Origin: Rhodocyclaceae bacterium
Lineage (GTDB): Bacteria > Pseudomonadota > Gammaproteobacteria > Burkholderiales > Rhodocyclaceae
NCBI GenBank assembly: GCA_020445745.1
Contig: JAGRGB010000215.1
Span: 1 to 55,782, forward strand
DNA: 55,782 bases
Direction of reading: 5' to 3'
Below the pieces are notes generated by a model. The model had not been told where the DNA came from. It worked only from the letters and a program-made list of their open reading frames with translations, and did not search any database. Below, one piece after another: positions 1 through 12,566 of the stretch; position 1 is the stretch's first letter; each line of letters begins with the position of its first letter. The position numbers were made by a program, and so were the translations under genes.

Positions 1-717
1 ACTCTTGAATAGCTTGGGATCGCCGACGCTTGCGACGATAGCAGTGGCGCTCAACGGCCCGATACCTTCGATCTCCATCAGCCGGCGCGCGGGCTCGCAT
101 TCGCGCGCCAAGGCCTCGATTTTGCGGTCATAGGCTTGAATGCGCTCATCAAGCCAACGCAGGCGGTCGTGCAAGTCCGCAATGGTCTCTCGGGCCAAGA
201 TGGGCATTGGATGCTTCCCAGCACCGATTTCGGCGAGCAATGTGCGGGCCCGGGCAATGCCAGACGCGGCAATGATGCCGAACTCGCCCAGCAGCCCGCG
301 GATCTGATTGACCAGTGCCGTACGCTCGGAGACCGCGAGCGCTCGGGCGCGGTGAACCGTTAGCACTGCCTGCGCCTCCTCCGACTTCACCGGCACATAT
401 CGCATCTGTGGCCGACCCACCGCCTCACAGATGGCTTCTGCGTCATTGGCATCGTTCTTCCCGCTCTTACGATAGGGCCGAACGAACTGGCCGGCCATCA
501 ACCGTGCATCGTGGCCCAGCCGAATCAGCTCTCGCGCCCAATAGTGCGCGCCTGCACAGGCTTCCAACCCAACGAGGCAGACAGGGACATTTGCGAAGAA
601 TCGTAGAACTTCGCTGCGCGACAGCTTCTTCCTGACTACCGCATTACCATGCGCATCTACGCCGTGAACTTGAAACACCGACTTGGCAATATCAAGCCCG
701 ATCCGAACAACTCTCAT
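1..717 (-). CDS. IS110-family transposase, 3' part cut by window edge
   Basis: The reading frame opens at an ATG (717) behind a good AGGAGG ribosome site and stays open to base 1, giving 239 residues without a stop; the rest lies outside the window. The N-terminal DEDD domain is clear: GLDIAKSVFQVHGVD with D9, the LEACAGAHYW stretch with E52, and KNDANDAEAI with D89 and D92. A helix-hairpin-helix-like GIGPLSA at residues 218-224 begins the C-terminal transposase domain. IS110-family enzymes use a RuvC-like DEDD catalytic site plus a C-terminal serine and move without ordinary terminal inverted repeats. The gene reads away from the cassette sites at 791-2355. Whether the copy is intact cannot be seen here. 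Confidence 0.9.
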   Translation of the reverse strand, partial: MRVVRIGLDIAKSVFQVHGVDAHGNAVVRKKLSRSEVLRFFANVPVCLVGLEACAGAHYWARELIRLGHDARLMAGQFVRPYRKSGKNDANDAEAICEAVGRPQMRYVPVKSEEAQAVLTVHRARALAVSERTALVNQIRGLLGEFGIIAASGIARARTLLAEIGAGKHPMPILARETIADLHDRLRWLDERIQAYDRKIEALARECEPARRLMEIEGIGPLSATAIVASVGDPKLFKS

Positions 718-790
718 GGATGCCTCCTCTTGATAGCCGGCAACCATGGCGGTCGCCGAAGCCTCAGTCTCCCGCGTTCAGGGAGGGGGA
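1..790 (-). mobile_element. Right part of an IS110-type insertion sequence
   Basis: The transposase start (717) and its short leader reach towards about base 790, where a folded cassette site begins. I place the element's edge near 790 only because the attC-like site there has a damaged outer core (GTCCATT where GTCCAAC is expected). No terminal inverted repeat was found, as is usual for this family. Members of the IS1111-attC subgroup of IS110 elements are known to insert into attC sites, which fits the position. The exact end is inferred, not seen. Confidence 0.5.
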
Positions 791-853
791 GTCCATTTCA
801 TTAGTTTAGATCGTGATCGCGAAGCGAGCCGCGATCTGAACCGGTTGTTGGAC
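791..853 (+). repeat. attC-like cassette recombination site 1, outer core altered
   Basis: The site ends in GTTGGAC (847-853), which fits the R' core GTTRRRY. It starts with GTCCATT (791-797), which would be a perfect partner if its last bases were AAC. Between them GTTTAGATCG pairs with CGATCTGAAC around a small GC-rich loop. The 63-base length is normal for attC. The altered left core coincides with the flank of the insertion sequence. Confidence 0.55.
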
Positions 854-980
854 AAGCCCGGTTCAGGATCGGCGACACAGGAAATATCTCTGGTTCAGGT
901 GCCCCGTTGCGGGGCCTTCAAGCCATCGCGATCGATCGGCGCGGAGCGCCAAGAGGGCGAAATCCAGCCCCCGCAGTGAC
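854..980. other. Cassette interval with no convincing gene
   Basis: These 127 bases lie between two attC-like sites and would be the body of a very short cassette. I see no open frame with a ribosome site. The stretch holds a short hairpin (GCCCCGTTGCGGGGC near 901-915) and a GGCGC-GGA-GCGCC palindrome. Cassettes without genes are known; this one could carry a promoter or a small RNA, but nothing here proves it. Confidence 0.4.
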
Positions 981-1052
981 GGCCAACAAGGTACTGCACC
1001 GGACTGTTCCACCGCTGAGCGGCTCCGCAGCCGGTGAGCGCAATCGTTAGGC
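981..1052 (+). repeat. attC-like cassette recombination site 2
   Basis: The right core is GTTAGGC (1046-1052), a perfect GTTRRRY. The left core is GGCCAAC (981-987), one base off RYYYAAC. The inner boxes pair strongly: CACCGGACTG on the left against CAGCCGGTG on the right, with one extra unpaired A in the left box, the asymmetry that marks the recombined strand in attC sites. The loop contains its own CCGCTGAGCGG hairpin. This is the clearest of the sites. A Shine-Dalgarno sequence and the next cassette's genes follow directly. Confidence 0.75.
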
Positions 1053-1116
1053 GAAAAAGGAAAAGGAAAGGAGAGAAATATGGCAGGTGAAGCAGAAGCA
1101 GCAGTAGAAACGCTAC

Positions 1117-1281
1117 ATGAACGCAATGAATTCGGGAGGTATGCTGTTTGTATTGGTAGTTGTTGGGTTTCTAGTTGCGTCTGGCGGCAGCCTCCTAGAA
1201 GGTTCGGAAGATCTATTCAAAGGCTTATCCCTCGCGGCATGCGCCAGTACTTCGATCCAGGATTCGTGGCGCGAGAGATAA
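1117..1281 (+). CDS. Possible small membrane protein (54 aa) in cassette
   Basis: A short frame of 54 codons begins at ATG 1117, with a second in-frame ATG at 1141 preceded closely by GGGAGG. It starts with a hydrophobic run (MLFVLVVVGFLVASGG) that would span a membrane once, then a mixed tail. A competing reading starts at ATG 1080 behind a stronger AGGAGA site and runs in frame into the SRPBCC gene, but its product there (many Arg, Trp, Cys) does not look like protein, so a short leader or the small membrane protein seems likelier. I do not recognise the family. Confidence 0.35.
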   Translation: MNAMNSGGMLFVLVVVGFLVASGGSLLEGSEDLFKGLSLAACASTSIQDSWRER

Positions 1282-1313
1282 ACCCTATTGGGCAGGCATT
1301 AAAAGGTGATCTT

Positions 1314-1751
1314 ATGAAATACACATTGAAACTTACCATCGACTCTCCTCGTGAAAATGTTTGTAAGTTGTTTGGTAATCCGCAGAATTGGAGTAAATGG
1401 CAAGGAACATTCGTTGGCTATGAGTCGATAAGTGGAGATGCCGGATATGCTGGCTCTAAAACAAAATTGATTCACAAATTTGGTAAAAGGCAAACCGAAA
1501 TGGTTGAAACCGTAGAGGCAAATAATCTTCCCGAAGAAATGGTATGCATATACGAGGCTCCGAGCGCATGGAACCGAGTGGTGTATAGATTCAAGGAAAT
1601 ATCACCGCAAGAAACTGAATTGGAATTTGAGTCCGAGTTCAAGTGTAGTGGTTTTTTAAAAATCCTGGCCTTCTTGATGCCCGGCATGTTCAAGAGAGCA
1701 TCACAGAAGGATATGAACGCTTTCAAGAAATTCGTTGAAACAAATGGATGA
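1314..1751 (+). CDS. SRPBCC-family (START-like) protein, cassette gene
   Basis: The 145-residue product starts MKYTLKLTIDSPRENVCKLF and continues NPQNWSKWQG, the usual opening of polyketide cyclase/SRPBCC folds, which bind hydrophobic ligands in a helix-grip pocket. The start at 1314 is chosen because AAGGTGAT sits five bases upstream; an in-frame ATG at 1080 would add 78 residues that do not resemble the family. The gene is clearly AT-richer than the chromosome around it, with codons such as AAA, AAT and TTT, a sign of separate origin. It lies between attC-like sites 2 and 3. The ligand and role are unknown. Confidence 0.8.
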   Translation: MKYTLKLTIDSPRENVCKLFGNPQNWSKWQGTFVGYESISGDAGYAGSKTKLIHKFGKRQTEMVETVEANNLPEEMVCIYEAPSAWNRVVYRFKEISPQETELEFESEFKCSGFLKILAFLMPGMFKRASQKDMNAFKKFVETNG

Positions 1752-1791
1752 CGAATGAGTGGCGGTCGTGATTGCCCTGCGTAGCGGCTTC

Positions 1792-1858
1792 GTCCAACCC
1801 ATCATTCCACCTGACCTGCGCAAGAACCCGCACAGGGCGGTGAATTCAAACCTTGGGC
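1792..1858 (+). repeat. attC-like cassette recombination site 3
   Basis: The left core GTCCAAC (1792-1798) fits RYYYAAC exactly. The right core is CTTGGGC (1852-1858), one base off GTTRRRY. Inner boxes CACCTGACCTG and CAGGGCGGTG pair with one extra base in the left box, around a CGCAAGAACCCG-type loop. The 67-base span is typical. It closes the SRPBCC cassette and precedes the membrane-protein gene. Confidence 0.65.
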
Positions 1859-1870
1859 GTCACGAAACTC

Positions 1871-2302
1871 ATGCTCAGCGCCGGTTCCCAAGCACTCCTC
1901 GTTGGTGGAGCATTGACTGCGGTTGCAGCCTTTTCGCACCTGGCTTGCATCGCTCTTGGCCCGTCGGCCTATCGGTTGATGGGTGCCGGTGAACGTGTGG
2001 CTCGCGCCGTGGAAGCCGGCAAGATGCAGCCCACGCTTGTTACCCTAGCCATCTCCGCTGTCCTCCTTCTCTGGGCTCTGTATGCCTTTTCTGGCGCCGG
2101 AATTGTGCGCCAAGTGCCCTACACCCATCTCGCGCTGCCCGCCATCAGCCTCATCTACCTCGCTCGAGCCTTTGCGTTCCCGCTGCTGCGACGTGTGTAC
2201 CCCGAGAACTCCACAAGGTTCTGGCTGGTCTCGTCAAGCGTCTGCCTTTTGCTCGGCACGCTCTACGCGGTCGGCGCCATCGCCGCTTGGCAAGCGCGGT
2301 GA
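1871..2302 (+). CDS. Small integral membrane protein, cassette gene
   Basis: The product has 143 residues with about four hydrophobic segments (near residues 5-30, 52-75, 83-100 and 118-140) and few charges; conserved-looking loops read GPSAYRLMGAGE and FPLLRRVYPENS. ATG 1871 is preferred over an upstream TTG at 1853 because the TTG lies inside the attC-like core. No strong ribosome site is visible. The stop codon sits two bases before the next left core (GCCTAAC at 2304), the tight packing expected of a gene cassette. I cannot assign a function; small polytopic proteins of this kind are common in integron cassettes. Confidence 0.7.
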   Translation: MLSAGSQALLVGGALTAVAAFSHLACIALGPSAYRLMGAGERVARAVEAGKMQPTLVTLAISAVLLLWALYAFSGAGIVRQVPYTHLALPAISLIYLARAFAFPLLRRVYPENSTRFWLVSSSVCLLLGTLYAVGAIAAWQAR

Positions 2303-2303
2303 G

Positions 2304-2355
2304 GCCTAACGAATGGGGTGGAGGAGCCCGCGCCTCGAGCGCCACGGCTCGATTC
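2304..2355 (+). repeat. Left half of an attC-like site
   Basis: GCCTAAC (2304-2310) is a perfect left core directly after the membrane-protein gene. A GAGCC...GGCTC stem around a GCGCCTCGAGCGC palindrome follows, as in the centre of an attC. No GTTRRRY core is found in the next 120 bases, so the right part is lost or too diverged to see. This is probably the edge of the cassette cluster. Confidence 0.45.
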
Positions 2356-2665
2356 CGACCCTGAAAACATTTCTTGCAGGTCCGCCCCGAACAGGGCGGC
2401 TTTGATCTTGGCGCACCGCCATCGGCACGGATGTCGCGCCTGCGCGTGTCTCGGAAAGGCCGAACTCCGGCGATTATGTCGGTTGGGGTCGAGTTTCAGG
2501 CGAGCCGATCTCTCGGCTGGCGGGCGCCGAACTCCCCGCGCGAAAGCCATGCCTGCAGCAGCTCGGCGCTTGCTGTCAAGCGACATGGCATAATGGAATA
2601 TGTCAGCGCATTGTTGGCGCTCTTCAGCGAAATCACTTGTCCAACCCCCCGAAAGGAGCGTAGAA
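2356..2665. other. Gene-free stretch at the cassette/chromosome boundary
   Basis: Short open frames occur here on both strands but none has a ribosome site or protein-like composition. A GTCCGCCCCGAACAGGGCGGC palindrome lies near 2380-2400. The last 60 bases carry an AT-richer stretch (ATAATGGAATATGTC) that may hold the promoter of the lipoprotein gene. Confidence 0.4.
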
Positions 2666-3181
2666 ATGCTTGTTGCCCTGAGAGAATGGTCGTATTCGCG
2701 AATCTTGCTGGTAGCCGCCTTCCTTTCAATTGCCGGCTGTGCGGCACAGCTTGCACCACCCTACGACAAGACCGTCGCCGACGGGTTGAATTCGGCAAAC
2801 ACAGAAGCGATGACGCTGATGGCTGCTACGTCACAGGGTACGGACAAGAACAGCTTCTCTGCCCGCGAAGACACCTACAACGCATTGATCGGAACGCTCG
2901 ACGCCCTGGCGCTTTCCGCAGGTGCGCGACCGATGCCGAAGAACCGGTTCACCGATGCAATCAACAAGGTGCTGGAGAAACGCGGTGGAAAGCCGATCGA
3001 CGATGATGATTCAACACCGCCGAGCGCCCATTCCATCAAGAAAATTGCAGAAACTTTGACCAAGATGAGAGACACGGACAAGAAGCAGGGTGTCACGGCC
3101 ATCGAGGCTCAAGCGTTCAAGGGCCAGCTGGTGATCTATTTCGACCAGGCGATTACCTACGAGAACTTCCTGCAGCGCTAA
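2666..3181 (+). CDS. Putative lipoprotein, unknown function
   Basis: The ATG at 2666 follows AAAGGAG by five to six bases. The N-terminus is a lipoprotein signal: a basic start, a hydrophobic run and the lipobox IAGC, so the mature protein would begin at Cys and be tethered to a membrane facing the periplasm. The remaining roughly 145 residues are helical and polar, with conserved-looking stretches GTLDALALSAGARPMPKN and YFDQAITYENFLQR near the end. I do not recognise a named family. The 114-residue gene starts 19 bases downstream with its own ribosome site, so the two are probably co-transcribed and may work together. Confidence 0.8.
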   Translation: MLVALREWSYSRILLVAAFLSIAGCAAQLAPPYDKTVADGLNSANTEAMTLMAATSQGTDKNSFSAREDTYNALIGTLDALALSAGARPMPKNRFTDAINKVLEKRGGKPIDDDDSTPPSAHSIKKIAETLTKMRDTDKKQGVTAIEAQAFKGQLVIYFDQAITYENFLQR

Positions 3182-3200
3182 CCAACGAGGAGCATGAAGA

Positions 3201-3545
3201 ATGGCTATCGACATCGACCAGCTTGTCAGCGACATGAAGACGGCAGCGAGCGGCGTCCTGAACGCCGATGTTTCGACGTTCCGCGGGTTTTCGGAGCGAC
3301 AGCTCAAGGCCATTGCACAACAGGCGGCTTTGGTTGCAACGGGAATTGAAACCAGGCAAATTACCGAGGAGACCGAGCAGTTCTTCCTGGATAGCCTTGA
3401 AGACATGGCACTCAGCTTTGCAAAGACCCTCCGCGGTCTGCTGATGGTCACCATCGAAAAGGTATGGAATGCAATCGTCGGTGTTCTCTGGAATGCAATT
3501 TCAGATGCGGCGGGCGTGGTCCTGCCCGTGCCCGTGAAGAACTGA
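3201..3545 (+). CDS. Conserved hypothetical protein, partner of the lipoprotein
   Basis: This 114-residue protein has no signal peptide. The first 85 residues are an amphipathic helical region (DIDQLVSDMKTAASGVL, then RQITEETEQFFLDSLED), and the C-terminal 30 contain a moderately hydrophobic helix (VWNAIVGVLWNAISDAAGVV) that could lie in or on a membrane. A GAGGAG ribosome site stands upstream of ATG 3201. The 19-base gap from the lipoprotein gene suggests an operon. The family is not recognised and the function is unknown. Confidence 0.75.
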   Translation: MAIDIDQLVSDMKTAASGVLNADVSTFRGFSERQLKAIAQQAALVATGIETRQITEETEQFFLDSLEDMALSFAKTLRGLLMVTIEKVWNAIVGVLWNAISDAAGVVLPVPVKN

Positions 3546-3921
3546 GCGCCGAATGGCCGCGTCGAGGAGCGATGCAGTGGCAATGGCTTGGCCCATGCAA
3601 TGCACGGTCCGGGAAGCACTGATTCACTCACCGGACGCGCGCGCCTCATGGCAGATGCAAGCCAGAAATGGCGACGGCGAGAGCACGACGAGCGGCTTGC
3701 CAATGCAGTCGAGCCCTTCAGTCCCGGAGTGCGCCGTCAGGAATATGCTGACCCGCCGCGATCGCTTCGCGGCCGACATCGAGGCGATCGCACCGTGCTG
3801 TGGGTTGGATGTCCATGACACTTTTCGATCGACCGGCTGCTTTGCCGGATTGGGGCATGGGCGCGAGGCCGGACCCGCGTCGCTGTCCGTCGCGGGTCGG
3901 CCCGGGCGCTGACTACAAGCG
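3546..3921. other. Gene-free stretch before the acetyltransferase
   Basis: Frames are open here on several strands, as is common at this GC content, but their translations are rich in Arg, Ser and Pro and lack ribosome sites. I find no terminator with a T-run and no recognisable promoter. It may contain decayed coding sequence. Confidence 0.35.
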
Positions 3922-4455
3922 ATGATTCGAGTCCGCGGCGCAACCGAGCAGGATCGTGAGGCCGTCCTGGATGTCCACAGGCATGCCTTCCCCGCAGGAG
4001 AATGCGATGCCGTTGCGAAGCTGGCGGTCGGTTTGCTGGCGGAAGAAACCAGCCCTGCAACGATCAATTTGCTCGCGGAGATCCGTGGCGAGGTGGTGGG
4101 CCATATCGCGTTCAGCCCGGTCACACTGAGCGGCAAAAGCGATTGGCTCGGCTACATCCTGGCGCCATTGGGAGTGAAGCCCGGGCATCAGGGAGGTGGT
4201 GTCGGGCGGAAGCTCATCGAACGCGGTATGGCCCAGGTCCGCGAGAAGCCCGTCGATGTCGTCTTCGTCTACGGCGATCCGGCTTATTACGAACGGTACG
4301 GATTCGGCGCAGATGCCGCCGCGGGATTTCTGCCGCCCTATCGGCTGCAGTACCCATTCGGGTGGCTGGCAATTTCGCTGCTTGACGGTGGGCTGTTGGA
4401 AGAAACCGTCCGTCTTTGCGTCTTGGAACCGCTGCGCGACCCAAGTCTGTGGTAG
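3922..4455 (+). CDS. GNAT-family N-acetyltransferase
   Basis: The 177-residue protein has the GNAT fold signature: an N-terminal RGATEQDREAVLDVHRHAF, a central strand with VGHIAFSPV, and the acetyl-CoA binding loop VKPGHQGGGVGRKLIERG, which matches the Q/R-x-x-G-x-G/A pattern. The following FVYGDPAYYERYGF is typical of the YhbS-like branch, whose members acetylate small molecules or protein N-termini. The substrate cannot be told from sequence. The start is the first ATG of the domain. It stands alone between gene-free stretches and faces the globin gene tail to tail. Confidence 0.85.
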   Translation: MIRVRGATEQDREAVLDVHRHAFPAGECDAVAKLAVGLLAEETSPATINLLAEIRGEVVGHIAFSPVTLSGKSDWLGYILAPLGVKPGHQGGGVGRKLIERGMAQVREKPVDVVFVYGDPAYYERYGFGADAAAGFLPPYRLQYPFGWLAISLLDGGLLEETVRLCVLEPLRDPSLW

Positions 4456-4563
4456 CGGTGTTGCGCGAAAGGCGTTGAGGGCGGGCCGGAAACCCGAACA
4501 GCGCCTGCGTGTCGCGCAGTCATTGGTCCGGCATGCCTCGCTGCGGCCCCGGGGCATGCCCGC

Positions 4564-4613
4564 AAGACGCGAAACGGCTCGCAAAGCATTCGAGTGCGTG
4601 CCGTTCGCGTCTT
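4564..4613. terminator. Imperfect inverted repeat between convergent genes
   Basis: AAGACGCGAAACGGC (4564-4578) pairs with GCCGTTCGCGTCTT (4600-4613), leaving one bulged A, with a 21-base loop. It lies between the convergent acetyltransferase and globin genes. There is no T-run, so intrinsic termination is uncertain; it could also serve as a processing or protective hairpin. Confidence 0.4.
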
Positions 4614-4626
4614 CGTCGAGTCGGAC

Positions 4627-5067
4627 TCAGTGGTTGACGACGGCTGACTTCAGGCTGCCGAGCATGGCCATCACCTCGCCGTGCTCCTTGGCCGGGACAT
4701 CGAACTTGTCGAGCGCCATTTCCACATTCTCGGCCAGCGCGGCGAAATCGGCGTCGGTCAGGCTCATGCCGGTGTGGGCGGCCTGCATGTCCTTGCCCTC
4801 GTACTGGCAGGGGCCGCCGGCGGCCTGGCAGAGAAAGTCGACGAGCTGGCCGGCGAAGGCTTCGGGCTTGGTGTTGGCAAAATAGTGATTGATGCGCTCG
4901 TCCGCCGAGGTGATGGCCCACAGTTCGCCGACCACGGCTTCCAGCGCGGGCTTGCCGCCGAGGCGTTGGTAGAGCGTCTTGTCTTCGGCGATCGCGCCGG
5001 CAGACAGTGAAAGGGCGACGAGGCCGGTGGCGACGAGGCCGAGAGTGCGACGGGAAAGGCGATTCAT
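4627..5067 (-). CDS. Exported group 1 truncated hemoglobin
   Basis: After a signal peptide (NRLSRRTLGLVATGLVALSL, cleavage near SAGAIAED) comes a truncated globin of about 120 residues. It opens with TLYQRLGGKPALEAVVGE and keeps the family block GGPCQYEGKDMQAAHTGM, where His is the proximal heme ligand, then LTDADFAALAENVEMALDKF. The Met at 5067 is preferred to one four codons upstream because GGAG lies seven bases before it. Group 1 truncated globins bind oxygen or nitric oxide and often detoxify NO. Export would place this one in the periplasm. It is a single gene with no partner beside it. Confidence 0.88.
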   Translation of the reverse strand: MNRLSRRTLGLVATGLVALSLSAGAIAEDKTLYQRLGGKPALEAVVGELWAITSADERINHYFANTKPEAFAGQLVDFLCQAAGGPCQYEGKDMQAAHTGMSLTDADFAALAENVEMALDKFDVPAKEHGEVMAMLGSLKSAVVNH

Positions 5068-5504
5068 GCGGGTCTCCATGGGTAGGTGATCGAGGCGGTT
5101 GCGATACTAGGATCCGCCTCGATGCCGGTCGGTGACCCAGGTCACCACCGACGGGGCCATGGAGCGCGCGCGTTTGAATGGCCGACCAACCTCAGGCACG
5201 CTGCGGCCGGCGGATGACGGTTCGCTGTACCGCGACGGACAGATGGATGGGGCAGGGCGGCCGGCCGACGCCTGCCGCCATTGCGCCCGGGGCCCGTCTA
5301 CGTGAGGGCGGTCGGCATGGAAGCGACGGGCGGAAGCGGGAAATGCGATCCAGGTTCGATCCCGCCGCCCGGCACGTCGTCGGTCATCCGATACGCTTCC
5401 TGCGAATGTTGGTGCCAAGGACGCTTACCGATCCGGCCTTATCGCACGCCGTCGCGCGGTATATCGTCCGCGCCAGGCGGTCCGCCCGCCAGTCGTGTCG
5501 CGCC
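5068..5504. other. Gene-free stretch
   Basis: About 440 bases between two minus-strand genes. It should hold the globin promoter, but I cannot point to convincing -35 and -10 boxes. A CAGGTTCGATCCC motif at about 5352 resembles a tRNA T-loop, yet the flanking arms do not pair. No gene is supported. Confidence 0.35.
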
Positions 5505-6260
5505 TCAGGCGCTCTGTGCCTCGCAGACGCTTGCCGGCAGCGCTTCGTACCAGTCGACGATGTGGCGGCCGTTGCGCAGTGCCAGACCGGCCAGCACCGC
5601 AGTGGACAGTGCGTCGTCCGGTTCGAGGAACACGGCCGGGTTGCCGTCGCGGCTGAAGCACGAGCCACCGCGGAGCTGCCAGCGCCACACGCTGCATTCG
5701 AGTGCCAGGTGCAGGCGCAGCATCTCGGTCGTTCCGTCGATGTCGACCGCCAGATCGACGTCGATGACGCCGGTGCGCCCGAAGCTGCGCAGTGCATCGC
5801 GCAGTTCGTCCAGCTCCGAGGTCGGCAGGATCTCGAAGGCCCCCGAGGCGAGGGCCGTGAGCAGTTGCGGGTCGGCGCTGTCGCCTGGTTCGAGGCGGGA
5901 TGCGGCCTGCTGGATCTCGGCTTCGACGGCGTTGCGAGATTCGACGGCGTGATCGGATTCGCCGGCATGGCGTGCGGCGGTGCCCAATACCGCCAGCACG
6001 GTTTCCAGCGTCTGGGCGAGGGCTTCGCGATCGAGCTGGCCACGGCGCTGGCTGCGCAGGGCCTGGCGGAGCAGCGTGCGCGCCGCATTGGCCCCGCCGG
6101 GCAGCAACTGCCCGTCCGGGATGCTGCCGCAGAACTTGAGGCAGGCGACGATGCGGGCCAGTCGCGCCGCGTGGTCGGGATCCTGAGGGCGGTTTGACGC
6201 TTGGAACAGATGCGCCAGCTTCGAATCGCTGAAGTGATCGAGGTCGTCGACGGTCAACAT
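5505..6260 (-). CDS. Hypothetical protein, 251 aa
   Basis: The start at 6260 (MLTVDDLDHFSDSKLAHLFQ) follows GGGAGA by a good distance; upstream in-frame Mets give unlikely extensions through a promoter-like AT-rich patch. The N-terminal half is helical and rich in Ala, Arg and Leu. The C-terminal half reads like an alpha/beta domain, with DLAVDIDGTTEMLRLHLALE followed by NPAVFLEPDDALSTAVLAGLALRNG. No signal peptide or membrane segment is seen, so it is probably cytoplasmic. I do not recognise the family. Codon use and acidic-basic balance suggest it is a real gene. Confidence 0.7.
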   Translation of the reverse strand: MLTVDDLDHFSDSKLAHLFQASNRPQDPDHAARLARIVACLKFCGSIPDGQLLPGGANAARTLLRQALRSQRRGQLDREALAQTLETVLAVLGTAARHAGESDHAVESRNAVEAEIQQAASRLEPGDSADPQLLTALASGAFEILPTSELDELRDALRSFGRTGVIDVDLAVDIDGTTEMLRLHLALECSVWRWQLRGGSCFSRDGNPAVFLEPDDALSTAVLAGLALRNGRHIVDWYEALPASVCEAQSA

Positions 6261-6723
6261 CGGCTTCTCCCGGTATCCGGTGTCTGCCGAGGGGGCCACG
6301 AGCGTGCATCGAGCGCGGACCGGAGCCCCGGGGATGCTGCGAGCAGACGGGGTTGTCAAGGTGTCGAGGACAGGGTATCGGAATGTGTGCTGCGGTGCAA
6401 CATAAATAAATTTTGGCACAGGTGTTGGCGCCTGGCTCGCCTGATTCGTGACGGTCCCGCGGTGCTCGGCGCCAGGGGCTCGACGCTGCGGGCCCGCGAG
6501 GCGTGCTTGTCACGGCCTGCCGCGCGGATGTACAAGACGTGGCGGGCAAGCGGTAGTTCGCGCTCCGCGCCACTGTCGATCGTAAGAAGCGGGCGCGGCC
6601 GCTGGCGATCGTGCTCGCGTCGGGCGATTACCGGCGCTTCCGCGGGCGATTGGCCCGCGAGCACCTTGCCTTGCATTCGTAACCGGGCTGGAGCGGCGCG
6701 CTGCGGTCGATCGGGAGGGCTGG
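6261..6723. other. Divergent intergenic stretch with AT-rich patch
   Basis: This gap lies between a minus-strand gene and a plus-strand gene. A conspicuously AT-rich patch, GCAACATAAATAAATTTTGG (about 6395-6414), could hold -10 elements for the minus-strand hypothetical gene. The rest is GC-rich with no supported gene. Confidence 0.4.
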
Positions 6724-7230
6724 ATGTCGCGCCGTCGAATCACGCCCGCAGGCCTCACGATGCTGGCCTATTTGGTTTCGCAGGCCAATCTGGCACGGCT
6801 CGTCGGTAGTCTCGAGCCAAGCATCTTCGCCTTGCAGCTCTCGTTCACGGCCGAGCAATTCTGGCGGGTCGTGTCGGCGTGGGGTGCGGCCGGCGTCCAG
6901 CGCTACATGGACCACTTTCCGTACGATTTCCTCCATCCGTTGGTGTACGGCTGCATGGGTGTCGTGTGGGTGCGCGATACCAGGCTGTTCGAAGCATGGC
7001 CGGCGGGCCTGCGCCGATTCTGGGCGTGGTCACTGCCGGTGGCGGCGATGTGCGACCTGCTGGAAAACGTGTTGCACATCCGGTTGCTCACTTCGGGACC
7101 GGGCTCCGGGAGCAGCCTGGTGCTGATCGCGGGTGCCGCGGCCTCGTGCAAATGGCTTCTCGCGGTCCTGTTCACGCTGGCCCTCGGGGCCGGTGCGGTG
7201 CGCTCGTGGCGCCCGTTTCGCGGTCCGTGA
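6724..7230 (+). CDS. Integral membrane protein of unknown function, 168 aa
   Basis: The protein has about four membrane segments. Conserved-looking polar motifs sit at their edges: MDHFPYDFLHPLVYG near residue 61 and CDLLENVLHIRLL near residue 108; Asp and Glu inside or beside membrane helices suggest a catalytic or ion-handling site, though this is inference. A GGAGGG stretch six bases upstream supports ATG 6724. No signal peptide beyond the first segment is evident. It is a single gene, convergent with the ThDP enzyme. The family is not recognised. Confidence 0.75.
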   Translation: MSRRRITPAGLTMLAYLVSQANLARLVGSLEPSIFALQLSFTAEQFWRVVSAWGAAGVQRYMDHFPYDFLHPLVYGCMGVVWVRDTRLFEAWPAGLRRFWAWSLPVAAMCDLLENVLHIRLLTSGPGSGSSLVLIAGAAASCKWLLAVLFTLALGAGAVRSWRPFRGP

Positions 7231-7420
7231 CGGTCGCACGGGGGAGCGTGGATCGGCCTCGTGGGGTCGTCATGCAACAGTCGGGCAGAGTCATAGATGG
7301 AATTTATGGGGTTGCCCCGAGCCACGGCTTGTCGGGCGGACGGCCGCAGGCCAGCCTGCGCCCGCGAGACCACCGCGTCGGGTCGTGAACTCGCCACCGG
7401 CGCTCGATCGCGGCTTCCCG

Positions 7421-9100
7421 CTACTGGGCATCGACGACGATTTCGATCAGGTTGGGCTGCGCCGAGGCGATCGCCGCGGCGACCTTCGGCCGGATCTCGT
7501 CGGCGGCGACGATGCGCTGCGCCGGCATGCCCATCGACGTCGCCAGGGCCTGGAAATCGACTGGCGGATCGGTGATGTCCATGGCGATGAAGCGCCCGGT
7601 ACGTGCCGAGGTGTAATGCGACTGTGAGCGCATGAAGTTCTTCAGGATGTTGTATTCGCGGTTGTTGACCACCACGAAGCTCACCGGCAGCTTCTCGTTC
7701 ACCGCGGTCCACAGGGCCTGCGGCGAGTACATCGCCGCGCCGTCGCCGACCAGCGAGACCACCGGCTTGCGCCCGAGCCCGAGGGAGAAGCCGATCGCCG
7801 CCGGCATGCCCCAGCCCAGCGCGCCGCCGCGCAGGAAGGAGTACTGGCGGGTCGAGTGATTGGCGAGGAACTTGCGCAGGTGGGTCGCGGTCGCCAGCGC
7901 TTCGTCGACGATCGGGGTGTCGCTGCCGATCGCCAGGGCGAGTTCCCGCGCCGCCACCAGCGGGTGGATCTTCGGCCGGTCCTGCAGGGCATCGGCCTCG
8001 GCCATCAGCGCCGAGCGGCGGGCCGCGAAGGCTTCCCGGGCCTGGTGGCGGCGATCCTCGAAGGCCTGCCGGCGGTCCGCCACCGCCGCCTGCAGCAACT
8101 GGTTCAAGGCCTGCAGCGACAGCTGGATGTCACCGACCACCGACAGCCGCGTCGAGTAGGTGCGTCCCAGGTCGCGGCCGTCCACCGAGAGCTGGTAGAG
8201 TTCGCAGCCGGCCGGCAGTGCCGAGGCGTCGGAATAGAGGATGGTGATGAACGACTTGCCGCCGAGGGCGAAGATGGCGTCGCACTCGGCGATGGCCTCG
8301 GCGATCGCCACCGCCTTGGTCGGCAGGTTGCCCTGCCACAGGTAGTGTCCGGTCGGATACGGGATGTGCGCCGGCCACGAGGAGCCGAACACCGGCGCCG
8401 CCAGGATCTCGGCCAGCTCGACCACTTCGCGATAGGCGTCGTTCAGCGAGATCTCGTCGCCGGCGATGATCGCCACCCTGCCGGGCGCGTAGCCCGCCAG
8501 CTCGGTCGCCAGTTCCGCCAGCGAGCCCGCCACCGGCCGCCGGTCCACCCGCGACACGCGGGGGATCTCGACCGCGCTTTCGGCCTCCATGACGTTCATC
8601 GGCAGCGACAGGAAGACCGGGCCGGGAGGCGTCGCGCTGCTGTCCTGGAAGGCCCGGCGGATCAGGATCGGGATCTGTTCCGGGTCGGTCACCTCCTGCG
8701 CCCACTTCGCGACCGGGGTGGCGATCGCCACCAGGTCGCCCTGCAGGAGCGGATCCGCGATCGCGTGGCGAGAGTCCTGTTGTCCGGCGGTGACGACCAG
8801 CGGCGTGCCGGAGGTGCGCGCATTGAGCAGATTGCCCAGGCCGTGGCCGAGCCCGCCGGCGGTGTGCAGGTTGATCACTCCCGGCTTGCCCGAGGCCTGG
8901 GCGTAACCGTCGGCCATCGCCACGACGCAGGCCTCCTGCAGGCCCAGCACGTAGTGGATCCGCTTGCGGCCGATCAACGCGTCGATCAGCGGCAGTTCGG
9001 TGGTGCCGGGGTTGCCGAAGATGTACTCGACGCCCTCGCTCTCGAGGGCCTCGAGCAGTACATGGGCACCGAGGCGTTTGTCGGGCACGCTGGTGGTCAT
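7421..9100 (-). CDS. Thiamine-diphosphate enzyme, benzoylformate decarboxylase-like
   Basis: The 559-residue protein has the three-domain ThDP layout. The N-terminal Pyr domain has GNPGTTELPLID (residues 29-40), the catalytic Glu in LGLQEACVVAMADGYA (E56), and His in INLHTAGGLGHG (H79). The C-terminal PP domain has the cofactor motif GDGAAMYSPQALWTA ending in VVNN. Benzoylformate decarboxylase has Ser at the place of T33; His, Glu and a further His (PTGHYLWQG) are kept. The family decarboxylates 2-keto acids, but acetolactate-synthase-like or other carboligase activity cannot be excluded. CAGGAG before ATG 9100 sets the start. It stands alone, so the pathway is not given by neighbours. Confidence 0.85.
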   Translation of the reverse strand: MTTSVPDKRLGAHVLLEALESEGVEYIFGNPGTTELPLIDALIGRKRIHYVLGLQEACVVAMADGYAQASGKPGVINLHTAGGLGHGLGNLLNARTSGTPLVVTAGQQDSRHAIADPLLQGDLVAIATPVAKWAQEVTDPEQIPILIRRAFQDSSATPPGPVFLSLPMNVMEAESAVEIPRVSRVDRRPVAGSLAELATELAGYAPGRVAIIAGDEISLNDAYREVVELAEILAAPVFGSSWPAHIPYPTGHYLWQGNLPTKAVAIAEAIAECDAIFALGGKSFITILYSDASALPAGCELYQLSVDGRDLGRTYSTRLSVVGDIQLSLQALNQLLQAAVADRRQAFEDRRHQAREAFAARRSALMAEADALQDRPKIHPLVAARELALAIGSDTPIVDEALATATHLRKFLANHSTRQYSFLRGGALGWGMPAAIGFSLGLGRKPVVSLVGDGAAMYSPQALWTAVNEKLPVSFVVVNNREYNILKNFMRSQSHYTSARTGRFIAMDITDPPVDFQALATSMGMPAQRIVAADEIRPKVAAAIASAQPNLIEIVVDAQ

Positions 9101-9846
9101 GGTCTCGTTCTCCTGTCGCTGGGCGGTGGTCGTCGACTGGACTATAGACAGCGGGCGTGGCGATCGGGTGGCCTCTCGCGACGCCGTTGCCGCGGTGACG
9201 CGAAGTCGGCGATGTCGTCGCGTGCGGCCCGGCGCGATGCCGCCGTGGCGTCGTCGGCGATCGTCGCGAATCGCGCTTTCCAGCGCGCAGCATCGCGGTA
9301 CGCCACGAGGTGACCGGCAGGCGGGCTCGAAGCGGGAGGACCGGGGGCGCACGGTGCTTCTGCGGCCACTCGCGGCGGTGGTCGGCAGGATCGGTCGGCC
9401 ATGTCATGAGGGCCGCCCGCCCGGCAATCGCGATCCCGGCGGGTCGAGATGCCGGTCGCGAAGCCTTTGAGCGACAGCTGCGCTCTGAACGGAGTGTCCG
9501 CACGGGCGTCGAACGGTCGTCATGGGTGCAACGGACATACCCTGCAGGGGTGGTGCTCGGCGATCGTCGTCAACGGGGACGCTCGCCTGCAGGGCTGGTC
9601 GCGCCGAGGGGTACCGGCGCAGCTGGGGGCCGGCATCGTCGCCGCGGTTCCGGGCCGGTGACGGAGTGGTCGCGGGCCGGCGGCGAGTGAGCGCAGGGGG
9701 CGCTTCGTCGCCCGGGATGCCGCCGCATCGCGGCACGGGAGCTGAACGAGGGCCGGTACCGAAGGTGGTTCCGGTGGGCCGCGATCGGCCCGGCGGGCGA
9801 TCGGGATCGGCGGTACGATCCGGCGAATCCGCGTGGAGCGGGACAA
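9101..9846. other. Long gene-poor stretch
   Basis: Nearly 750 bases contain open frames in several phases, but their translations are dominated by Arg, Pro, Ala and Gly and none has a plausible start. A patch at 9130-9150 (GACTATAGACAG) might include the -10 box of the ThDP gene reading leftward. I see no repeat or hairpin worth naming. Confidence 0.35.
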
Positions 9847-10128
9847 ATGGCTCGTGACAGGGGTGATCGCGCGGCCGGCGTGGCCGGGAGCGCCCGCGGC
9901 CGGTCGGGAGAGCCGGGCGCGTTCGCGGCGAACGCGCGGTCGGTACCGGCGCAGGCGGATGGCTGCTGGTCGGTGTGGCGCCTGGACGACAACGGCAATG
10001 CATTCCGCGTGGCCGGCGGGCTTTCCCGCGATGCCGCGGAGGCGATGGTGCGGGCTTACGAGGCGAAGGGGCACAAGCAGTGCTATTGGACGTGCCGGCA
10101 GAACGTCCAGGCGGATGGCGTCCCATAG
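9847..10128 (+). CDS. Small SPOR-like/hypothetical protein, 93 aa
   Basis: The N-terminal 35 residues are low complexity. The C-terminal part reads CWSVWRLDDNGNAFRVAGGL then SRDAAEAMVRAYEAKGHKQC and YWTCRQ, a compact alpha/beta unit seen in small conserved proteobacterial proteins with the pattern WxVWRxDDNGNxF...GLxxxxAxxxVxxFExxGHKQxYW. That pattern is from memory of the family. ATG 9847 follows GGAGCGGGA. The function is unknown. The codon pattern of the second half is convincingly protein-coding, so the gene is probably real even if the true start is further in. Confidence 0.65.
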   Translation: MARDRGDRAAGVAGSARGRSGEPGAFAANARSVPAQADGCWSVWRLDDNGNAFRVAGGLSRDAAEAMVRAYEAKGHKQCYWTCRQNVQADGVP

Positions 10129-10336
10129 GGTGAGCACCGCACCCGTCGGTGAACGTGCCGCGCCAGGCGGCAGGCGATGCGGCTCGGGCCGTGCGAAAGC
10201 ATGCGATCGAGCCGGCGATCGATCCTGGCACGGTCTCGGGCACGACGCGCCGAGCGCGGTCATCGCGCGTCGTTCGCCTTGTCACGACTGCCCGTCCTCG
10301 GCACGCTCGGCGCTGGACAGGCGATGAGGAGCAAGG

Positions 10337-10699
10337 ATGATCAAGTTCGTCATGTGTCTGACGCGACGCGCCGACATGAGCCGCGAAGCGTTTCTCGATT
10401 ACTGGAAGAACCGGCACGGCCCGTTCTTCATGCAGAATGCCGGGGTCATCGGCGCGAAGCGATATCTGCAGTCGCACACGGTGAGCACGCCGCTCAACGA
10501 GGGCCTCAGGAGTTCTCGCGGCATGCTGCCGGAATTCGACGGCATCGCGGAGGTGTGGTTCGAGTCCGAACAGGCGCTGGTCGCCGGAATGAGTTCGCCG
10601 GAAGGCCAGAAGCTCGGTGCTGCGCTCCACGAGGACGAGGCGAACTTCATCGACCACGCCAGGTCCTGCGCGTTCATCGTCACGGAGCACGAGTTCTGA
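10337..10699 (+). CDS. EthD-domain protein
   Basis: The 120-residue protein has the ferredoxin-like EthD pattern: MIKFVMCLTRRADMSREAFL, DYWKNRHGP with the conserved His-Gly-Pro, then YLQSHTV, and a C-terminal stretch AEVWFESEQALVAGMSSPEG. EthD-like proteins form small dimers and occur with degradation or polyketide pathways; the original EthD is needed for ethyl tert-butyl ether breakdown. GAGGAGCAAGG before ATG 10337 is a strong ribosome site. No pathway genes lie beside it, so the substrate is unknown. Confidence 0.85.
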   Translation: MIKFVMCLTRRADMSREAFLDYWKNRHGPFFMQNAGVIGAKRYLQSHTVSTPLNEGLRSSRGMLPEFDGIAEVWFESEQALVAGMSSPEGQKLGAALHEDEANFIDHARSCAFIVTEHEF

Positions 10700-11114
10700 G
10701 CGACGGCCGGGGTATCGACCGGTAGCCGGGCGGCAGAATTCGATCGGACATCACGCGCTGGTGGCGGTCGACCCGCCGAAGCGACGCTCGACGCGGGGGT
10801 GGCGGTCGCCAATCGATCGGCGTGATCTCGCCGCCGACCCCTGCGCACCTCGCCGGACCTGAAGCACGCTACCCGCGCCGGCAACGATTACGGGTCTTTC
10901 CGGATCGCGATGCAGCAGCCACGCCCGCGGCGCGCGATGGTCGCGTCGTGCGCTGAGTCCGGTGTGGTGGGTGCCGGCGTGGCGCGGGCGGGCCGCTGCG
11001 GCTCCGACATCCATGAAGTCGATCACGATTTACTAAAGTATCGCGCAGCGAGACCGTCAAAGAATTGTCTTGTCATTTGTCGCGCGCCATCCGTGCGCCG
11101 CGCAGGAAGTCATC
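10700..11114. other. Intergenic stretch before the kinase/regulator pair
   Basis: About 415 bases. The last 90 bases become AT-richer (CACGATTTACTAAAGTATCG, about 11022-11041), where TACTAAAGT may be part of a promoter for the two-component pair. No gene is supported. Confidence 0.4.
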
Positions 11115-12566
11115 ATGACGACAATCGTGCCGGGGGTCGCGCGTTCCGAGCCGCGACCATCAAGCCCGGCGTCGTCGATCGCACTGGTCGAGAGTTTCCT
11201 CGGGATGGCAGCCTTGCTGCATTCGGATGGTCGCGTCGAGGCCGTCAATCGGGAGCTGGCCGCCGTCAGCGGCGCCGGCGACGCCGACGTCGAAGGCAGA
11301 TGCTTCTGGGAATGCGAGTGGTGGGCCTTCGATCCCAACGTCCAGACGCGGATCCGGCGCGCGGTGGAGGCCGCCGCATCGGCCGGGCAGGCGCAGTTCC
11401 TGCGGGCCGTCAAGCGCGTGCGCGACCGGGAATTCCTGAATGTGGAGATCAAGATCTCGCCGTTCGAATGTCCGTCCGGCGGTGGCAACTGGCTGATCTA
11501 CAGCGCTCGGGATCGGACGGCGCAGGTGGCGGGCGAAGAAGCGCTCGCCCTTTCCGAACAGCGCTTCCGCCTGGCCGTGGAATCCTTTCCGGACGGCCTC
11601 GTGATGGTGGATCAGAAGGCGCGCATGGTCCTCGTCAACGCCGGCATGGAGACCTTGTTCGGCTATGCACGCGACGAGCTGCTCGGCGCCCGGATCGATC
11701 AGCTGCTGCCGGACACGCAGCGCCATGGGCACGCGGCCCACTTCGCGCGCTACATGGAGCATCCGACGGCGCGCGCGATGGCGAATCGGCGCGAACTGCA
11801 TGCGCGCCGCAAGGACGGCTCCGAGTTCCAGGTCGAGATCGGGCTCAACCCGATCCCCTCGGAGCAGGGCACGATGGTGCTGGCGACGATCCAGGACGTC
11901 ACCGCGCGCTACGCCGCCCGGCGTTCCACCGAGCGCGCCCTCGAAGAGAAGACGGTGCTGCTCCACGAGATCCACCATCGGGTCAAGAACAACTTGCAGG
12001 TGATCTCCAGCCTGCTCAACCTCCAGTCGCGGGGCGCGAGCGGCGATGTCGCGGCGGCGCTCGCCGAGAGCCAGGGTCGCATCAAGGCGATGGCGCTGAT
12101 CCACCAGCTGCTCTACGAGCGCAAGGATTTCTCCAGCGTCGATATCGCCGAGTACCTGCGGCGTCTGTGCGGCCTGTTGTCCGAAAGCTACCGCAGCGTG
12201 CGTCCGCGCTTCCGCTTCGTGCTGGAGGCCGAGGAAGGCGTGTGCGTCAGTCTCAAGCGGGCCGTGCCGTGTGGCCTGTTGGTCAATGAGCTGGTCACCA
12301 ATGCCCTCAAGCACGCGTTCCCGGAGCCACGGACCGGGCAGGTCCTGGTGTCGCTCCAGCGGGACGACGACGGTTTCACGATCACCGTGGCGGACGACGG
12401 CATCGGCCTGCCGCCCGAGGTGGTGCCCGGCGTGACGCGATCGCTGGGCATGCAGCTGATTCCGCTTCTCAGCGATCAGGCCTGTGGCAGTTGGGCACTG
12501 ACGCGTGACAACGGCACCCGCTTTACCATTCGGATCAGGCCCGACGAGGGCAAGGAGGTGGCATGA
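11115..12566 (+). CDS. PAS-PAS sensor histidine kinase (HisKA_2 type)
   Basis: The 483-residue protein has no membrane segment. Two PAS folds (about 20-130 and 145-270) precede a HisKA_2 dimerisation domain with HEIHHRVKNNLQVISSLLNL (from residue 284), which holds the phosphoacceptor His, and a HATPase domain with LLVNELVTNALKHAF and DDGIGLP. Such kinases sense signals in the cytoplasm through bound ligands or cofactors and pass phosphate to a response regulator. ATG 11115 is chosen because AGGAAG lies just upstream. The stop overlaps the regulator's start (ATGA), which marks translational coupling and a cognate pair. Confidence 0.92.
   Translation: MTTIVPGVARSEPRPSSPASSIALVESFLGMAALLHSDGRVEAVNRELAAVSGAGDADVEGRCFWECEWWAFDPNVQTRIRRAVEAAASAGQAQFLRAVKRVRDREFLNVEIKISPFECPSGGGNWLIYSARDRTAQVAGEEALALSEQRFRLAVESFPDGLVMVDQKARMVLVNAGMETLFGYARDELLGARIDQLLPDTQRHGHAAHFARYMEHPTARAMANRRELHARRKDGSEFQVEIGLNPIPSEQGTMVLATIQDVTARYAARRSTERALEEKTVLLHEIHHRVKNNLQVISSLLNLQSRGASGDVAAALAESQGRIKAMALIHQLLYERKDFSSVDIAEYLRRLCGLLSESYRSVRPRFRFVLEAEEGVCVSLKRAVPCGLLVNELVTNALKHAFPEPRTGQVLVSLQRDDDGFTITVADDGIGLPPEVVPGVTRSLGMQLIPLLSDQACGSWALTRDNGTRFTIRIRPDEGKEVA

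Follow-up and report, generated by a model that had tools for sequence, protein, structure and literature searches.

Two Mobile Elements in the Probable Remains of an Integron Cassette Array of a Cognatazoarcus-like Rhodocyclaceae

The Locus and Its Genomic Setting

The window analysed here, a stretch of 55,782 nucleotides, corresponds to contig C168 of a Rhodocyclaceae genome of 4.88 Mb assembled in 217 contigs, for which a completeness of 100% was computed. The nearest named genomes for a flanking decarboxylase were Rhodocyclaceae bins and Cognatazoarcus halotolerans, and many of the contigs compared below are metagenome bins. The contig starts inside an IS110-type transposase gene, 0.8 kb to the left of the attC sites, and the features found from this edge onwards are listed in Table 1.

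Table 1. Features at the left end of the window (scores are given for the covariance models R1 and R2).
Feature	Position	Strand	Observation
IS110-type insertion sequence, cut by contig edge	1..804	-	transposase 717->1, PF01548 54.7 bits
Element right end, attC-shaped hairpin	806..853	-	R'' GTCCAAC 847-853; repeated unit
Heptamer GTCCAAC	847-853	-	within mobile-element right end
Element tail	854..944	-	806-944 92.8% identical to same-genus G005
attC site	981-1052	+	R1 37.3 bits; R2 36.0 bits, E 3.5e-7
Heptamer GCCTAAC	1046-1052	-	part of attC 981-1052
Decayed attC-like palindrome	1219-1290	+	similar to a C138 palindrome; absent from the preliminary description
SRPBCC-type gene, 145 aa	1314..1751	+	PF10604 34.9 bits, cut-off 27.4
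Element left end GTTGGACGAAGCCGCTACGCAGGG	1775..1798	-	left-end pattern match, 2 mismatches
attC site	1792-1858	+	R1 49.4 bits; R2 43.9 bits, E 2.8e-9
Heptamer GTCCAAC	1792-1798	+	part of attC 1792-1858
Small membrane-type gene	1871..2302	+	open frame from 1853, first ATG 1871
Heptamer GCCTAAC	2304-2310	+	partner not detectable

Two small genes were found in this region. The first, of SRPBCC type, sits between the two ends of a mobile element. The second owes its membrane label to the preliminary description, which assigned it from sequence only, and it had no Pfam match. The mobility inferred there is putative for both genes. For the membrane-type gene, homologues were found in 2 of the 149 other genomes among 150 of the family, and neither presented an attC model match within 1.5 kb on each side.

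A comparison with relatives showed that the locus is not ordinary conserved chromosome: in the same-genus genomes G001 and G005 the DNA match begins only at about window position 5486-5505, and the sequence preceding it in both genomes held no attC model match. Over positions 2300-7700, same-genus DNA matches were found only from about 5490 on, the GNAT gene excepted. The stretch 2300-5490, between the array and the first DNA common to the same-genus genomes, was variable too, and its GNAT gene matched other contigs of G001 and G005. No Rfam match at E<=1 was obtained for window positions 1-12000.

attC Sites and a Second Array

The attC sites were searched with two covariance models, both covering one attC subtype. 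R1 was built from 12 attC sites of other genomes. Because three of these had been chosen by similarity to window 1794-1854, a second model, R2, was built from nine script-found sites located in five stretches beside integron integrases, none of them chosen by similarity to the window. The palindrome script was noisy and was used only to gather seed sites, and the R2 search of the 55.8 kb window was run with filters off.

Four attC-like sites had been proposed from the sequence, and all four of their heptamers are present. Both models recovered two of these sites, 981-1052 and 1792-1858, the next-best scores in the window being 13.5 bits (R1) and 11.9 bits (R2), but gave no support to the other two: the core at 847 belongs to a mobile-element end of the inverse orientation, and for that at 2304 the search of the window yielded neither an R1 or R2 match nor a supported partner. 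As to the one-base asymmetry, both supported sites carry the extra base in the 5' arm. Both are also decayed. In 981-1052 the R'' box is altered (GGCCAAC, at 981) and R' reads GTTAGGC, and in 1792-1858 the R' box is altered (CTTGGGC, at 1852) and R'' is common to the left end of the element. The best copies of 1792-1858 in other genomes were 85-89% identical.

Genome-wide (4.88 Mb), R1 matched four places at E<=1, namely the two window sites and two on contig C138, where a third match of 27.2 bits was obtained in a smaller R1 search. Small genes and attC sites supported by the model make up a second cassette array on C138 (L028, 6533-8147, minus strand), which reaches the contig edge. The window palindrome at 1220-1289, which had no R1 or R2 match of its own, was 94% identical over 70 nt to C138 8753-8822, inside this second array.

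Clusters of attC sites that hold no integron integrase are known as CALINs. As in these clusters and in chromosomal integrons, the attC sites of the window share one orientation and are separated by small genes, and its contig as assembled holds no integrase; 981-1052 and 1792-1858 give it the two close attC sites, here on the same strand, that are the minimum for a CALIN. It differs from them in that its two supported sites are both decayed, in that two mobile elements are present and in that the left side is unassembled. CALINs are named in PMC9229058. The window array is of an ordinary, already-known kind, one more decayed cassette cluster, and the interesting part of the locus is the element.

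The Missing Integrase

As the preliminary description had noted, no integrase gene lies in the window: a genome-wide search for integron integrases gave no match on C168. No intact gene was found elsewhere in the genome, where the trace recovered was a 54-position C-terminal piece on another contig (C193:468-629, plus strand, 90 bits). On C193, this fragment directly adjoins a further tyrosine recombinase gene, which is divergent and runs off the contig edge. The genome has two other genes for tyrosine recombinases, taken to be putative XerC and XerD.

The array would once have been part of an integron whose integrase was lost or lies on unassembled DNA. That the integrase was lost, C193 holding what remains of it, is a reading whose chances are about even. 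The C193 fragment points in this direction, as does the second array on C138, which has no intI in view either. Against it, blastn found no sequence common to C193 and either the first 6 kb of the window or C138, on which ground a link between C193 and the window array was rejected, and the left side of the array is hidden by the contig edge. Since the contig starts inside the IS110, the two readings offered in the preliminary description, an integrase-less cluster and the end of a (here broken) chromosomal integron, cannot be told apart.

A Recombinase/IS91-Type Element and Its Ends

Window positions 800-867 recur in relatives. In the copies, the sequence past the GTCCAAC box (on the window minus strand) is conserved, and the sequence past GTT is not. 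The right-end unit pattern was found in 37 of 297 family genomes, with 17 occurrences in genome G312 (reversed control, one in all), and the left-end pattern in 40 of 297 (control, none). The genome under study has exactly one right end and one left end at <=2 mismatches, both in the window. Among 36 distinct right-end loci read, 22 run unbroken through the hairpin to CTTANTCGTT, with A or G as the next base in 21 of them; in the remaining 14 the unit is cut (in the window by the IS110), decayed or variant, or the match arose by chance. In 10 loci, the C-terminus of an IS91-type transposase ends 115-299 nt upstream.

Several candidates for the 847 core were set aside. An ordinary attC of a 200-bp cassette was rejected on account of the conserved flank on the R'' side and the repetition of the unit. 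Invasion of half an attC by an IS91 end was rejected, as was a REP, given that the hairpin and the GTT belong to the repeat in G312, and a group IIC intron end was dropped once the IS91 transposase appeared upstream.

Ten of the 17 G312 copies were fetched. Eight are 2.43 kb long, 97.9-100% identical and sharp at both ends, one carries an insertion, and one consists of the tail only. One such 2.43 kb element (L209, 2692-5122) was seen among many dispersed near-identical copies in this genome. Of the two genes in the element, one is for a tyrosine recombinase (PF00589, PF13495), the other for an IS91-type Y2 transposase (NF033538 361.8 bits, cut-off 125; PF04986, PF14319). The recombinase stays below the TIGR02249 cut-off for integron integrases (88.5 bits, first frame only, vs 265). 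In all five full copies translated, from five genomes, its reading frame breaks at one and the same position, which may reflect decay or else a programmed frameshift. The plasmid version of the recombinase shares about 30% identity with integron integrases and has a long gap in the region of their additional sequence, which we take to be their extra domain.

The right end forms a helix in which 98.9% of cells are paired in an alignment of 15 sequences (5 plasmid rows out of 20 were left out). Four pairs are changed on both sides and, since the 15 sequences are related, these changes count as support only.

A Cassette-like Build

In gene cassettes, the 5' end is complementary to the R'' box of the cassette's own attC. 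The left end of the element is GTTGGACGAAGCCGCTACGCGG, the heptamer of which is complementary to the right-end R'' box GTCCAAC. If this is the cassette arrangement, elements with the R'' box GTTCAAC should begin with GTTGAAC. In all 21 complete elements from family loci (22 rows, the window being present twice), the left heptamer and R'' are exact complements, although the independent cases are fewer, because nine of the 21 are G312 copies. The GTTGAAC/GTTCAAC pair is found in three of the 21, from two genomes. Among plasmid elements with both ends, the match is exact in three of six and has one mismatch in the other three, always the same, which would be a G-T pair on the complementary strand. 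G107, where GTCCAAC is found in 4 of 5 right ends and GTTGAAC in 7 of 7 left ends on split contigs, is a probable exception. In the open full-text literature, no description of this complementarity was found.

Like a gene cassette, the element has a 5' (G)TTRRAC complementary to the R'' of a 3' attC-shaped site and lies at G/TT. It differs from a cassette in having two mobility genes and not one promoterless gene, in lying inverse to the cassettes in arrays and in having many copies outside arrays in G312.

Target Sites and Wider Occurrence

Outside G312, 26 of 46 distinct left ends, that of the window included, fall with single-base precision on the R'' box of an inverse attC matched by R1; the left-end heptamer itself supplies R'', and the rest of the attC comes from the flank. 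Twenty-two of these 26 matches are at E<=0.01, and R2 gave the same 26 places. A 47th left end (L274), searched with R2 only, had no match. In G312, the nine copies that have both ends are followed by GTT and a purine, and none of the nine is in a supported attC.

On the E. coli plasmid RCS41_p, the same two-gene unit, with a transposase 38% identical, lies in the attC preceding the aadA1 cassette gene. This unit (L272, 2003-4345) is inside a class 1 integron and inverse to its cassettes. Left ends of the same type precede recombinase/IS91 pairs in Salinivibrio, Photobacterium, Pseudoalteromonas and Rhizobium; the pattern search found no right end for the Pseudoalteromonas and Rhizobium pairs and neither end in Shewanella. 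On a Pseudoalteromonas plasmid (L279, 376-3571), a recombinase/IS91 pair directly adjoins an integron integrase, at the position of the first cassette.

Guide pairing is known in related single-strand transposons. The element may be an IS91-type rolling-circle transposon whose terminal hairpin and short guide sequence are no more than attC-like, the complementarity serving the transposase with no integron chemistry, and this reading stands a little short of an even chance. It is favoured by the transposase score over the NCBIfam cut-off, by the dispersed copies outside attC in G312, by the one-mismatch left end/R'' pairs and by the lack of any score for the element right ends with R1 and R2, which represent another attC subtype. 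The insertions exactly at attC R'' boxes outside G312 argue against it, and so does the linked recombinase, which is related to integron integrases.

Associations between IS91 elements and attC have been described. An attC was seen beside ISShvi3 in PMC9229058, and another at the end of ISCR28 in PMC12772301, both being members of the IS91 family. The element shares with them the IS91 transposase and the attC association, and it may differ in four respects: the attC-like hairpin is its own end, the R'' box of this hairpin pairs with the left end of the element itself, the transposase gene comes after one for a tyrosine recombinase, and attC R'' boxes are the frequent target. Targeting of attC R'' boxes by IS91 elements was not found in the open full-text literature.

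The Window Copy

In the window, the left end at 1798 and the right end at about 806 lie on the minus strand in the correct order and orientation, and the left end is the R'' of attC 1792-1858 in inverse orientation, that is, the frequent target. The copy spans about 1 kb (996 bp by script) and has neither the recombinase nor the IS91 transposase gene; between its ends are the SRPBCC-type gene, the palindrome at 1219 and attC 981-1052. It is either a remodelled member holding cassette material or what remains of two copies.

Two truncated copies are quite conceivable, if somewhat on the improbable side. In their favour, homology to the tail stops at 944 and left-end homology at 1775, and attC 981-1052 and other cassette pieces lie in between. 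This is countered by the finding that the genome has one right and one left end, at the right order, orientation and distance, and by the existence, in four other genomes, of five short gene-less members with lengths of 315-770 bp.

The IS110-Type Insertion and the Contig Edge

The IS110 end abuts the right end of the element, with the junction at about 804/805, and sits after TCTAA of the attC-like hairpin, the last bases of the right end (CTTATTC-GTT) being lost to it. It is a single copy in its genome, and its end TAATGAAATGGACTCCCCC is common to the two closest homologues (L141 and L142, 77-79% identical). Junctions at which AAC is directly followed by GAATGAAAGG were found at 7 of 29 loci homologous to the window IS110, a pattern that attC-targeting members of IS1111 would give. 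The two closest homologues present no such junctions and are not next to attC cores. IS110/IS1111-type elements with this junction were observed at L154-L159 and L163, and some homologues of the window IS110 lie close to integron integrases (e.g., in G048, G092 and G106).

The IS1111-attC group comprises mobile elements homing on attC sites. The recombinase/IS91 element likewise homes on attC, with another enzyme. The window IS110 itself sits in an element end, and its closest two homologues are not next to attC cores. The group is named in PMC11187229.

An insertion sequence at the contig start also leaves room for the plain distal end of a working chromosomal integron, whose intI and attI would lie beyond the IS110, on its left, in DNA that the assembly lacks. 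In keeping with this, 74 of the 121 family genomes searched have a TIGR02249 match that passes the cut-off, and in the same-genus G005 an intact intI starts 1.2 kb from the counterpart of window 806-944. This reading is nevertheless unlikely, given that the genome, computed as complete, holds only the intI fragment, on another contig, and that decay has affected both of the supported attC sites.

Chance palindromes in ordinary chromosome are extremely improbable: RYYYAAC heptamers alone occur at chance frequency (41 in the window vs 45.7 expected) and the single-strand folding energies of the four sites, which the preliminary description had offered as a check, do not stand out (z -0.74, -0.67, -1.09 and -0.21), but the window-blind model R2 gave the E-values of Table 1 and near-identical site copies exist in relatives, so that chance is refuted for 981-1052 and 1792-1858 and stands for 2304.

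Proposed Origin and Meaning

Taken as a whole, the locus is most probably the remnant of a decayed integron cassette array, with no integrase as assembled, in a Cognatazoarcus-like Rhodocyclaceae, broken by an IS110 and by a cassette-shaped recombinase/IS91 element. This element has a left end (G)TTGRAC and, as its right end, an attC-like hairpin, the R'' of which is the complement of the left end; it inserts at G/TTR, and the point of insertion is often precisely an attC R'' box, to which it lies inverted. The sites, the ends, their order and the coincidence with the target are observed. The movement itself may proceed through a circle that recombines at its attC-like junction or, alternatively, by rolling-circle transposition ending at the same sequence.

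We tentatively suggest, as a proposal that is more doubtful than probable, that the recombinase/IS91 elements are self-mobile gene cassettes: with an attC-shaped terminus, they would rebuild a perfect attC in the circle, invade attC R'' boxes inversely or GTT sites in other places, and leave gene-less or cargo-bearing derivatives.

The origin of attC sites and gene cassettes is, to our knowledge, an open question. Members of this family occupy attC sites in settings as far apart as Rhodocyclaceae chromosomes and the class 1 integron of an E. coli plasmid, and by uniting a recombinase with an IS91 transposase and an attC-shaped terminus they offer a testable route between transposons and cassettes. 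The ends of such elements can pass for ordinary cassette sites, as at 847. If the proposal is true, each landing would plant an attC-like site beside host genes, and new cassettes, like attC clusters without an integrase, could in part stem from self-mobile elements; the window copy, with the SRPBCC-type gene between its ends, would be an example.
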